The notes under the pieces are model-generated. The model was not told the DNA's origin and did no database searches. It saw nothing but the letters and a program-made list of their open reading frames with translations. From positions 1-25,678 of the IMG/VR virus record IMGVR_UViG_3300022752_000348: DNA of 25,678 nucleotides. One strand, given 5' to 3'. Made by a program: the position numbers and the translations under genes. Each line of letters begins with the position of its first letter. Within the stretch, counting starts at the first letter, position 1. Positions 7,263 to 15,228 of the stretch are shown piece by piece. The stretch is from a virus.

Positions 7263-8732
7263 TTAGTAGTACTCTGTGTTTTCATGAATAACTTTTTCAT
7301 CTTCATAATCCTCGGGATGACCTATAAAGCCTCCCTGTCTAAATCTCATCAATGCTTGTGTCATTGAGTCTACAAGGTCATCATTATCCCCAAATGGAAA
7401 TGCCGCGCATTCCTCAATAACCTCTTCTGCAAAGTCAGCCTCTGGCGCCCAAATTTGTCCACTCTCAAAAAGAGGGGCAACGGCGTTTACTCTAGAATGT
7501 TTATCATTTCCTTTGCTAGGTGTAAAGTTGATAACAGGTATTCCCATCTTACGTAATTCATAGGTTAGTGGTAATCCTGATGCTTTTGACTCTACAACTA
7601 CTGAATCCGGTCTCCAATAATAATATTGTTGTAGCGCTTCACGTCTAAGTTCTGGAAACTCTAATCGTTTTTTTAAAGCATCTAATAATATTAAATTAGG
7701 TCCTGAATCTTCATCTGGATAAAATACTCCCCAAGTAGTGATAGCAGAGTAATCTGCAGTTTCTTTTTTTAAGAATGCAGTATCATAACTTTGTATAACA
7801 TGTTCTAAAGCTGGAATATAATCTTTGTCCCACTTACGCCACCATTCACGTTTAATGATTGAACCTTCTTCTGATGTTGGATTCTGCATCCATTGTGCAT
7901 TCCATTTTTGTAAACTTAAAGATGCTTTAACAGATTCTAATTCTTCTAACTTCCAATACTCTGGCCACACTGGTTTATTAGTTGGAAGGATTGCTGGAAA
8001 CTGTACCACTTCCCATTGATCTGATTTTAATCTTTTCTGAGCCCCGATCAACGCTCCGGTAAGATCTTTCAAAGACCAACGCGTCATAACCACAACAATT
8101 TTTCCACCGGGTTGTAATCGCTGACGTGGTCCTGAAGTATACCATTCATATGCACGCTCCAACGCTTCTGGATTTAAAGCATCTTGTTCCGAGTGCGGGT
8201 CATCAATGATAAGTAAATCCGCTCCGCGGCCCGTGATTGCCCCACCAACACCAGCTGCAAAGTATTCTCCACCTTGTTCCGTTTCCCAACGGCCCGCGGC
8301 TTGTGAATCTTCGCGCAATGTAGTTTTAAAATATTTTTTATAATCAGAACTATCAATTAAATGTTTTGCTTTTCTACCAAATCTAACTGCAAGTTCAGTA
8401 GTATGGGTTGTTTGGATTATTTTTAATTTTGGATTCTTACCAATCATCCAAGCGGGTAGCAGGAAGCTAGCGAATTCAGATTTAGTATGCCTTGGTGGCA
8501 TGTTAATAATTAATCTATTAATCTTTCCTTCTGCAAGTTTATTAAATTGTTCAGCAATTTTTTTATGATGTTTACCTTCAACAAAGTCTGGCCAGACAGA
8601 TTTTACAAAAGTTAAAAAGTCTTTATGTACCTTTTCTTCTTTTTTCTTTTCATCATATTTAATTGCGTACTTCATAAACTCCTTACGCGCATCTGGCGGA
8701 AGTTTATTCAAATCTATTTTATCTAGATCCAT
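7263..8732 (-). CDS. terL: Terminase large subunit (packaging ATPase and nuclease)
   Basis: A 489 aa protein. The ATPase part has a Walker A-like MPPRHTKS at 78-85 and Walker B LLIIDD at 173-178 followed by PHSEQD, and a coupling motif VVMTRWS at 215-220. The RNase H-fold nuclease has QSYDTAF (D317), VVVESKASG (E381) and FGDNDDLVDSM (D452/D455), so all catalytic acids are present. It cuts and pumps concatemeric DNA into the prohead with the portal. It is the first gene of the late minus-strand operon, with 830 bp of noncoding DNA upstream. The nearest ribosome-like AAAGGTG is about 23 nt before the ATG, which is far. The small subunit is encoded on the other strand, at 10704-11210. Confidence 0.95.
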   Translation of the reverse strand: MDLDKIDLNKLPPDARKEFMKYAIKYDEKKKEEKVHKDFLTFVKSVWPDFVEGKHHKKIAEQFNKLAEGKINRLIINMPPRHTKSEFASFLLPAWMIGKNPKLKIIQTTHTTELAVRFGRKAKHLIDSSDYKKYFKTTLREDSQAAGRWETEQGGEYFAAGVGGAITGRGADLLIIDDPHSEQDALNPEALERAYEWYTSGPRQRLQPGGKIVVVMTRWSLKDLTGALIGAQKRLKSDQWEVVQFPAILPTNKPVWPEYWKLEELESVKASLSLQKWNAQWMQNPTSEEGSIIKREWWRKWDKDYIPALEHVIQSYDTAFLKKETADYSAITTWGVFYPDEDSGPNLILLDALKKRLEFPELRREALQQYYYWRPDSVVVESKASGLPLTYELRKMGIPVINFTPSKGNDKHSRVNAVAPLFESGQIWAPEADFAEEVIEECAAFPFGDNDDLVDSMTQALMRFRQGGFIGHPEDYEDEKVIHENTEYY

Positions 8733-8929
8733 AAAAAATTTTTATAATTTTTTTTCACCTTTTGATTTATTTATGAAAATGAATTTACACCCTACCCCTG
8801 TCTAAATCAAGGTCTAAAGCCCCAACTCTGGGTCCCCTTTTTATGGTTTAAGGGGGTGGGGGGTCTTAGATCTTTCGACTTTCAAAATCATATAGGGATT
8901 CAAGGTCTAGTCCGGGCACGGACGTGGAT

Positions 8930-9412
8930 GCCGGGCACGGAGCCCGGCGGCGAGCCGCAACAGCGGCGAGACCGGGCGACGCCCCGCGCAGCGGGGAGAG
9001 CGGCGCAACAGCGCCGCACCGCCGACCACGACCCGCGCAGCGGGAGGAGCGCGCCGCAACAGCGGCGCACGACTCAATGCCCGCGCAGCGGGCACGAAGA
9101 GCAGCGCAACAGCGCTGCACGATTGAGGGATGGCGAGCCGCGAAGCGGCGAGCGCACAACCTAGGATTGTATGTTGCGCTAGAGCAACACCGTTGCATAA
9201 TTACAAGCGCCGCGAAGCGGCGCCCCACGACCCGCGGAGCGGGGTGCGACAATATGTCGCATTGACTTTAATGATTAAATAAATATAGGCGCGCGAAGCG
9301 CGCCCCGACCCATAAGCCGCGAAGCGGCGACCCTCGAGCACGCCAGGCGCACAACCTACGCGCGAAGCGCGGACCGCGTGCATCGCAGGCAAGCCTGCGA
9401 CAATTTGTCGCA
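8930..9412. repeat. GC-rich array of about 18 short palindromic hairpins
   Basis: Perfect inverted repeats (left arm start to right arm end): 8930-8948, 8954-8967, 8982-8996, 9000-9017, 9032-9044, 9051-9068, 9079-9093, 9101-9118, 9137-9149, 9172-9189, 9207-9223, 9231-9243, 9245-9261, 9288-9304, 9316-9328, 9359-9371, 9383-9400, 9396-9412. Loops fall into classes: AACA (second, fourth, sixth, eighth), GCA (third, fifth, seventh), GAA (ninth, 11th, 14th, 15th, 16th), GGA, ATA/ATT. Stem sequences differ between copies while staying perfectly paired, for example GCGGCGC/GCGCCGC, GCGCCGC/GCGGCGC and GCAGCGC/GCGCTGC. The GCGAAGC core is known as an exceptionally stable mini-hairpin in DNA. Base composition contrasts sharply with the AT-rich genome. 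Confidence 0.92.
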
Positions 9413-9464
9413 TTGACTATTTGCGGATCGTTGATCTCTAAAATTTGCGAATCAAAAAATTTAG

Positions 9465-9493
9465 TTGTTGCATTATTATTGTTATAAGATAAT
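9465..9493 (+). promoter_or_regulatory. Candidate sigma70-type promoter for the 9562 gene
   Basis: TTGTTG at 9465-9470, a 17-bp spacer and GATAAT at 9488-9493 (5 of 6 match to the -10 consensus; -35 weak, 3 of 6). It points at the plus-strand gene at 9562 and would start RNA near 9500, right at the 5' edge of the structured leader described next. Predicted by inspection only. Confidence 0.45.
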
Positions 9494-9501
9494 GTGGGAA
9501 G

Positions 9502-9561: not shown

Positions 9562-9753
9562 ATGATAACAACTAAAATAGTAAAGAATGGAAGTGACTTA
9601 GGTTTCATTGGTATGTTAATCCAAGTAACTAAGTTTCAAGATGGTTCGTTTGATGAACAAGTTTTAAAATCAAAGCATTACACTTTAGAAAAGAATGCTG
9701 AAAGACAAGTAAAAAAATGGCTTGATAGTCATAACAATATAAAGGTTGATTAA
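9562..9753 (+). CDS. Small plus-strand protein of unknown function
   Basis: A 63 aa protein with a strong ribosome site (AAGGAG, 7 nt before ATG). The sequence alternates strands and a final amphipathic helix (LGFIGMLIQVTKF; YTLEKNAERQVKKWLDSHN), suggesting a small beta-beta-alpha fold. It is one of the few genes on the plus strand and lies immediately after the candidate promoter and pseudoknot leader. The next plus-strand ORF begins directly at its stop codon, so the two are probably co-expressed. No family is recognised. A regulatory or host-takeover role is only a guess. Confidence 0.72.
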   Translation: MITTKIVKNGSDLGFIGMLIQVTKFQDGSFDEQVLKSKHYTLEKNAERQVKKWLDSHNNIKVD

Positions 9754-10703: not shown

Positions 10704-11210
10704 ATGGGTGTACCAAAACAATTAACTCCGATGCAAATGAAATTTGCTGAATTATTAGTTTACAATGAAGGTAGACTAACAGCAACTGAATGCGCAAGAC
10801 AAGCAGGATATGAAGAGGATAGAGCAAGAATAACAGCTTCTGAATTACGTAATCCAAGAAAATTTCCATTAGTTGCTAAATATATTGGTGAACTCAGAGA
10901 AGAAGTACAAAAGAAATATGAAGTTACATTTGAAAATCACATTAGTGAACTTGCAAAATTAAGAGAAGAGTCTAGAGCAAAAGGTGCTTGGTCAGCGGCA
11001 ATTAATGCAGAAGTTGCAAGAGGTAAAGCCGCAGGCTTATATATAGATCAAAAGATTATTAAATATGGTAGTGTAGATTCGTTAACACCAGCTGAATTAG
11101 AAGCTAAAATGAAACAAATATTAGAAGACCATAGAGGTTTACTAGTAGAAGCAGATTTTGAAACTGTCAAAGAACAACAAACAAAATCAGAGCAAATAGA
11201 AAAAGAATAA
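10704..11210 (+). CDS. terS: Terminase small subunit
   Basis: A 168 aa protein. The N-terminus LTPMQMKFAELLVYNEGRLT, then ATECARQAGYE, then ITASELRNPRKFPLVAKYI is the DNA-binding helix-turn-helix region of the Terminase_2-type small subunits (pattern 'ltpkq-x-Fa-x-ly ... A-x-AGY ... np-x-v-x-x-yi'). The middle is a helical oligomerisation region (EEVQKKYEVTFENHISELAKL) and the C-terminus is acidic/Gln-rich. It recognises phage DNA and starts packaging with the large subunit. Here it is on the opposite strand from terL and 2 kb away, with the hairpin array between them. No Shine-Dalgarno site is visible before the ATG. Confidence 0.85.
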   Translation: MGVPKQLTPMQMKFAELLVYNEGRLTATECARQAGYEEDRARITASELRNPRKFPLVAKYIGELREEVQKKYEVTFENHISELAKLREESRAKGAWSAAINAEVARGKAAGLYIDQKIIKYGSVDSLTPAELEAKMKQILEDHRGLLVEADFETVKEQQTKSEQIEKE

Positions 11211-14548: not shown

Positions 14549-15228
14549 TTTTTTAATTGATTATAATATTGATCTACTCTTCTTAAAAAATCATGTTTGT
14601 ATCTTTTGTATTCTAATCCTTCTATTGTAAATTCTTGATAAACATTTTCTGGTGTGCACATCATAATAATTCCTTTTTCAATTTTAGTTCCATAAACATA
14701 ATCATGTGCCATTCCATAAGCCGCAAGTTGCATAAAATAATCTTGAATCCATTCTTTTTTCTTTGGTTTATTAGATTGTTTAAAATCTATAATACTGTCC
14801 TTTCCATTATGAACTGCAATAAAATCAGTAGCTCCTGCATATAGATCTGGATAATATAAGGTAGCTTCCATGCCATAATATTCAGTGATTTTATTTTTTA
14901 ATCCGTTATCTATGATAGTTTGAGCCATGTTATGTGCATTACGACCTACATCTGTTAAATCTAAGTGATATTGACCCTCTATAAAACTTTGAATTATGGT
15001 ATGCATGGCTGTTCCACGTGTTGAAGAACGATCCACGATCCGCGTAGCTTCTTCTTCGCCTATTCGTTTACGCCACTCTTCCAGTGATTTACGTTTCTCT
15101 TCAGGTTGAGTTGCGGATAATATTGTAGTAACTGATGGTAATTTAGCTTCCCCTAGATCATAGTGTCTATGACCATCAACAGATGCTCGTGTTGATTTAG
15201 GGTATATAAATTTAGGATTGTGTTTCAT
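14545..15228 (-). CDS. RecB/MGME1-like PD-(D/E)XK exonuclease
   Basis: A 227 aa protein. Motifs in order: LPSVTTILSATQP (N-terminal signature), STRGTAMHTIIQSFIEG (RG-x-x-x-H helix), YAGATDFIAVHNGKDSIIDFKQSN (D of the site, then D-x-K), and the QDYFMQLAAYGMAHD helix (Q-x-x-x-Y motif). This set is that of Cas4/RecB-type and mitochondrial MGME1-type single-strand exonucleases. In T7-like phages an exonuclease at a comparable place (gp6) degrades host DNA and processes replication intermediates, a likely role here. It is coupled to a membrane-protein gene (4-nt overlap) and preceded by a lipoprotein gene. Confidence 0.88.
   Translation of the reverse strand: MKHNPKFIYPKSTRASVDGHRHYDLGEAKLPSVTTILSATQPEEKRKSLEEWRKRIGEEEATRIVDRSSTRGTAMHTIIQSFIEGQYHLDLTDVGRNAHNMAQTIIDNGLKNKITEYYGMEATLYYPDLYAGATDFIAVHNGKDSIIDFKQSNKPKKKEWIQDYFMQLAAYGMAHDYVYGTKIEKGIIMMCTPENVYQEFTIEGLEYKRYKHDFLRRVDQYYNQLKK

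Follow-up and report, generated by a model that had tools for sequence, protein, structure and literature searches.

Why does a virus of 32% GC carry a GC-rich row of small palindromes next to its terminase gene, and does this row act as DNA or as RNA? The window, i.e., the whole stretch of DNA that we analysed, is the entire IMG/VR record IMGVR_UViG_3300022752_000348 (25,678 bases). The row occupies an intergenic region between two divergent genes, terL on the minus strand and an ORF of 63 aa on the plus strand (9562-9753). The identities of TerL to HTVC027P and 023Pt_psg01 make the window a relative of HTVC023P-type pelagiphages, and this sequence relationship suggests that its host is probably the ocean bacterium SAR11. 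ORFs within the array were discounted as genes since they are made of palindromes. With the 63-aa ORF as query, one locus was matched, and the stretch beside that match was without an array.

Seven perfect, GC-rich hairpins form the core of the array (Table 1). Their coordinates, loops and order were found to be exactly those of the preliminary description of this DNA, and the two-hairpin module of about 50 bp proposed there is real as well; Tandem Repeats Finder independently reported a repeat at 8979-9122 with a period of 50, 2.9 copies and 78% matches. The core region contains 7 hairpins, compared with a mean of 0.98 and a maximum of 4 in 1000 dinucleotide shuffles. Between 8930 and 9420 there are 14 hairpins (mean of 1.83 and maximum of 7 in 500 shuffles), and 13 hairpins have GNA or AACA loops (mean of 0.09 and maximum of 2 in 500 shuffles). 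All 13 of these loops lie on the plus strand and none on the minus strand. Local GC, measured in 50-base steps, climbs to 70-80% inside the array. The fold z-scores are -7.0 for RNA and -5.8 for DNA; with neither set of energy parameters can the strands be told apart, and this comparison is not decisive. The hairpin row runs on past 9118, and strict alternation is therefore limited to 8954-9149; hairpins with other loops start at 8910, 8930 and 9383.

Table 1. Coordinates of the array and of neighbouring features in the window.
Feature	Positions	Strand	Remarks
terL, terminase large subunit	7263-8732	-	489 aa; 74% to Pelagibacter phage HTVC027P, 77% to phage 023Pt_psg01
Candidate leftward sigma-70-like terL promoter	8782-8810	-	TTGATT-17-TAAATT; array lies upstream
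7-bp hairpin	8930-8948	+	
Outer pairing around first AACA hairpin	8942-8946 with 8973-8977	+	GCCCG with CGGGC; unchanged in 5/5 homologues and, for lack of variation, not proven
Core alternating array	8954-9118	+	AACA/GCA, seven hairpins; stems 5-7 bp, closing pair C-G
Hairpin 1	8954-8967	+	AACA
Hairpin 2	8982-8996	+	GCA
Hairpin 3	9000-9017	+	AACA
Hairpin 4	9032-9044	+	GCA
Hairpin 5	9051-9068	+	AACA
Hairpin 6	9078-9094	+	GCA
Hairpin 7	9101-9118	+	AACA
GAA hairpin extending the alternation	9137-9149	+	Invariant in 5/5 homologues
GNA hairpins without AACA partners	9207-9371	+	9207 GAA, 9231 GGA, 9288 GAA, 9316 GAA, 9359 GAA
Candidate rightward promoter of the 63-aa ORF	9468-9495	+	TTGCAT-16-TAATGT; pattern match only, absent from a stricter scan
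terS	10704-11210		About 1.7 kb from the array

Homologous arrays were located by pattern scans, and others by a terS query. Arrays made up 5 of the 33 stretches found with a tighter two-hairpin pattern and 6 of the 71 viral stretches found with a two-AACA pattern. When the latter was run on genomes, AACA and GNA hairpins were never mixed in one cluster among the at least 119 matches listed. A loose two-hairpin pattern yielded at least 120 stretches and was dropped, the best 40 showing at most one GNA/AACA hairpin near the match, and a DNA search against phages gave no match. In four contigs (L216, L232, L348 and L370), the register of the window is kept to 1-2 nt, with hairpins at offsets 0, 28/29, 45-47, 78, 97/98, 124-126, 147/148 and 183/184 in the five arrays; one GNA hairpin of L348 is imperfect. 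Loop-order class and spacing thus hold in other isolates. The AACA loop is retained in 19/20 cases over the five contigs, the exception being AATA in the fourth AACA loop of L370. The second loop class is GNA (GCA, GAA, GGA), so that the alternation of AACA with GCA in the preliminary description stands as one of AACA with GNA, of which GCA is a special case.

The AACA stems show compensatory change at 4 pairs, with no broken pair, no G-T and no A-C, and their covariation score was reached by 0/500 shuffles. Such changes, with G-T intermediates missing, are also compatible with template-switch correction of quasi-palindromes in place of selection. The first GNA stem carries one or two mismatches in 4/5 contigs, and the outermost pair of the third is C-A in 2/5. 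The linkers between the hairpins are conserved too. A branched helix between CTCAAT (9073-9078) and ATTGAG (9122-9127), also part of the preliminary description, does pair in the window but is not conserved: only the window, 1/5 homologues, pairs fully, and 52% of cells are paired across the five. If a structured non-coding RNA were transcribed through the array, the RNA fold z-score, the conserved linkers and the covariation would be accounted for. However, Rfam 15 gives only 4 matches, all far below the gathering scores, the scan of the window yielded no credible promoter pointing into the array, and the AACA stems are without G-U pairs, and we consider such an RNA quite improbable.

The array matches the terL gene in its degree of conservation. 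Its identity to the window is 91% in L370, 91% in L348, 91% in L232 and 86% in L216, and the corresponding values for terL DNA are 90% (partial), 87%, 84% and 87%. The stretch separating array and terL could be aligned in only 2/9 loci (L370 and L348). Moreover, orthologous units are more alike (mean identity of 89%, n = 30) than units within one contig (mean of 80%, n = 15), which indicates that the row is old and not freshly duplicated. This comparison also speaks against a mobile or decaying repeat, be it a BIME/REP spread by RAYT or a neutral amplification of palindromes, a reading that would fit the repeated unit and the varying array size between clades. REP/BIME are paired palindromes in intergenic DNA, and a likeness to BIME had been suggested for this row. 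We found Y1_Tnp (PF01797) in 0/9 virus records including the window, while the control was positive in 8/14 named genomes. Unlike REP/BIME, which occur as many dispersed copies in both orientations, the array is a single locus in one orientation; no elements were found outside this intergenic region in the window, and in relatives too there is one locus and one orientation. Membership in REP/BIME was thus rejected, and a mobile or decaying repeat is very improbable.

Thirteen further contigs have shorter or altered arrays at the same site. Two of them (L337, L375) have AACA hairpins at steps of 51-53 nt followed by AACA at shorter steps, which breaks strict alternation. L234, L235 and L502 each contain three AACA hairpins whose GNA partners are degraded; L212, L223, L230, L236, L237, L242 and L243 combine one AACA with several GNA hairpins, and L245 has GNA hairpins only. 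Given these variants, strict alternation is a property of one clade. terL is present in 16/17 array loci, and its side and orientation relative to the array are always identical. This constant position beside terL, with terS at a short distance, would suit a packaging or replication site, i.e., repeated TerS/TerL (pac/cos-like) sites or a hairpin that serves the AEP-type primase of the phage as origin or as priming site, and both an AEP-TOTE primase and a PolA-type polymerase are indeed encoded in the window. Against such a site, GC skew, which is confounded by gene direction, makes no clear turn here in either HTVC027P or the window, and 54/138 relatives are missing a perfect hairpin (see below). 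We therefore regard a packaging or replication function as unlikely.

To extend the comparison to the wider family, we surveyed 138 terL-relative loci (excluding the window), each with 260 nt or more available upstream. A perfect GC-rich hairpin with a stem of at least 7 bp lies within 450 nt upstream of terL in 90/138 loci, representing 55 distinct sequences, counts that are not independent since the sites are related by descent; a control sequence of 406 kb contained one such hairpin. On the terL template strand, the loops of the 55 are G(N)NA in 35 (GTTA 19, GAA 5, GTA 4, GCGA 3, GCA 2, GCTA 1, GTGA 1), AACA in 4, TACA in 2 and other in 14, and the reverse class T(N)NC is found in 0/55. The G and the A of single-site loops are constant while the inner letters vary, and the closing pair is C-G in 40/41 single-site hairpins. 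With a relaxed composition filter, 84/138 loci have the forward loop class (G(N)NA or WACA), 2 the reverse and 54 none. HTVC027P is among the 54 without a perfect hairpin and has an imperfect copy with a TAT loop at its site. Both loop classes of the window are alternatives at the single site, because relatives carry either one there. Judging from these sequences, the array would have grown out of the single hairpin that most of the family carries at this site, and the single hairpin is likely the ancestral state.

A leftward sigma-70-like motif, T[TA]GATT-N16-18-TAWWWW, was found in 97/145 loci including the window, compared with a mean of 2.1 in shuffles and 0 on the reverse strand. The median distance from its -35 element to the downstream terL start is about 76 nt. 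The hairpins are upstream of this motif and thus outside the terL leader, if the promoter is used.

The same region contains other sequence features. Between array and terL promoter, at 8830-8863, the window has a block GGGTCCCCTTTTT...AAGGGGGTGGGGGG, and most relatives viewed have a similar one (GGGACCCCTTTTT...AGGGGG). An operator-like 17-bp palindrome occurs twice, at 9245-9267 and 9396-9418 (TGCGACAATATGTCGCA / TGCGACAATTTGTCGCA), each copy being followed by TTGACT, and relatives have near-copies in the corresponding position. The repeat GCGCACAACCTA is present at 9152-9163 and 9347-9358 and is dispersed over the same region beside hairpins in relatives. The 700 bases upstream of terL in L015 include a different GC-rich stretch, with GCGAAGC/GCGGAGC units in intergenic DNA of 54% GC.

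Could the hairpins be RNA 3'-end elements of an upstream transcript? A terminator without U residues, or an exonuclease-blocking hairpin, would then shield the late operon from early transcripts, with a REP-like effect. Indeed, a co-directional ORF stops before the hairpin in 76/78 single-copy sites, with a median gap of 13 nt, whatever protein is encoded upstream, and these proteins differ among relatives. This arrangement is expected of an RNA 3'-end element and counts against a DNA reading. However, in 68/78 single-copy sites the 8 nt that follow the hairpin contain only 0-2 T and hence no U-tract, the conservation of the G..A loop is on the strand opposite to the transcript, and the clade of the window has the largest array yet a divergent upstream gene. 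The window contains 3 terminator-like sites compared with 1.6 expected, none of them within 8954-9118. Mismatches in clear single-copy sites are A-C or C-A twice and G-T once, by which DNA or RNA is not decided. Similar hairpins are also few elsewhere in the genomes, as seen in five phage records. A 3'-end function thus appears rather unlikely.

The recurring loop of the few hairpins elsewhere is TTCG, an RNA-type loop. An identical 8-bp TTCG-loop hairpin is located at 36124-36143 of HTVC027P (L504) and at 14743-14762 of the IMG/VR record behind L574 (L591); that of HTVC027P lies between structural genes and resembles an RNA-type processing or termination signal.

Two known DNA systems share features with the array. 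The N4 virion RNA polymerase promoter, as described in PMC4496689, is a short GC-rich hairpin of template-strand DNA with a sheared G:A pair in a three-base loop, a partly free stem sequence and extrusion by supercoiling. The array likewise has hairpins with GNA-type loops on the template strand, and strand, loop and GC-rich core all agree with a promoter of the N4 type, to which a virion RNA polymerase of the phage would bind. It differs from N4 in forming arrays with a second loop class, AACA, and in lying upstream of a separate sigma-70-like motif, so that the terL promoter motif sits elsewhere. Moreover, no RNA polymerase was found with Pfam/PHROGs among the 7 HTVC027P proteins tested; in the PF00940 profile search, the control itself was silent. 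An RNAP is specific to HTVC022P in comparison with HTVC027P, according to PMC12753301. Promoters of the N4 type are thus hardly probable here.

The DGR target hairpin/cruciform (Bordetella phage BPP-1 type) has a GC-rich variable stem of 7-10 bp and a conserved 5'-GRNA loop, lies near a stop codon and functions as DNA (PMC3240598). Unlike in DGRs, the loop class of the array is antisense to the upstream gene, and there are triloops, AACA loops and arrays. RVT_1 was found in 0/8 records with a control positive in 4/14, which speaks against a DGR. The array is thus most likely structurally like the N4 promoter and DGR target hairpins and a member of neither group. In the title of a work cited in PMC8373063, d(cGNNAg) is named as a stable DNA loop motif. 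Loop and C-G closing pair of the family hairpins agree with the stable d(cGNNAg) loop and with GNA triloops, which are in-vitro motifs and not a genetic element; the AACA and TACA loops fall outside.

Together with the scarcity of such hairpins elsewhere, where the RNA-type TTCG loop recurs, the analogy to N4 promoters and DGR targets, namely, free stems, fixed G..A loops and supercoil-driven extrusion, favours a DNA hairpin. The element probably acts in cis, as DNA, at the early/late junction. The AACA/TACA loops match no stable DNA loop class known to us, which counts against a DNA reading. More specifically, we propose with a probability of roughly 0.4 that HTVC023P-type pelagiphages use the array as a cis-acting DNA element, conserved and strand-polar, in the control region upstream of the late (terL) promoter; it would be read by its loops and would control the early/late junction. 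We infer that DNA is the acting molecule, and likewise extrusion, protein binding and control of late transcription. Short, perfect, GC-rich palindromes would extrude upon negative supercoiling or single-strandedness of the region. Transcription generates supercoiling, and in the clade of the window the array would lie between divergent promoters supplying it. The terL template strand, with its c-GNA-g / c-GNNA-g loops, would fold into compact hairpins, of which a phage or host protein may recognise the loop and shape and not the stem sequence; this recognition would control the early/late junction. A torsion-sensing DNA switch, in which minihairpins with an alternating two-loop code would extrude between divergent promoters and phase a loop-specific phage protein on the late template strand, thereby setting the early/late change, seems unlikely.

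The array is a real, conserved non-coding element, of which we found no description among the open PMC texts searched; the available part of PMC9599517 does not mention hairpin, palindrome, intergenic or RNA polymerase. HTVC023P-type pelagiphages are an abundant group of ocean phages, and a non-coding element that is conserved as strongly as terL and has one loop class on one strand offers a concrete handle. If the array acts as DNA, functional phage DNA hairpins would extend from single sites to ordered arrays.
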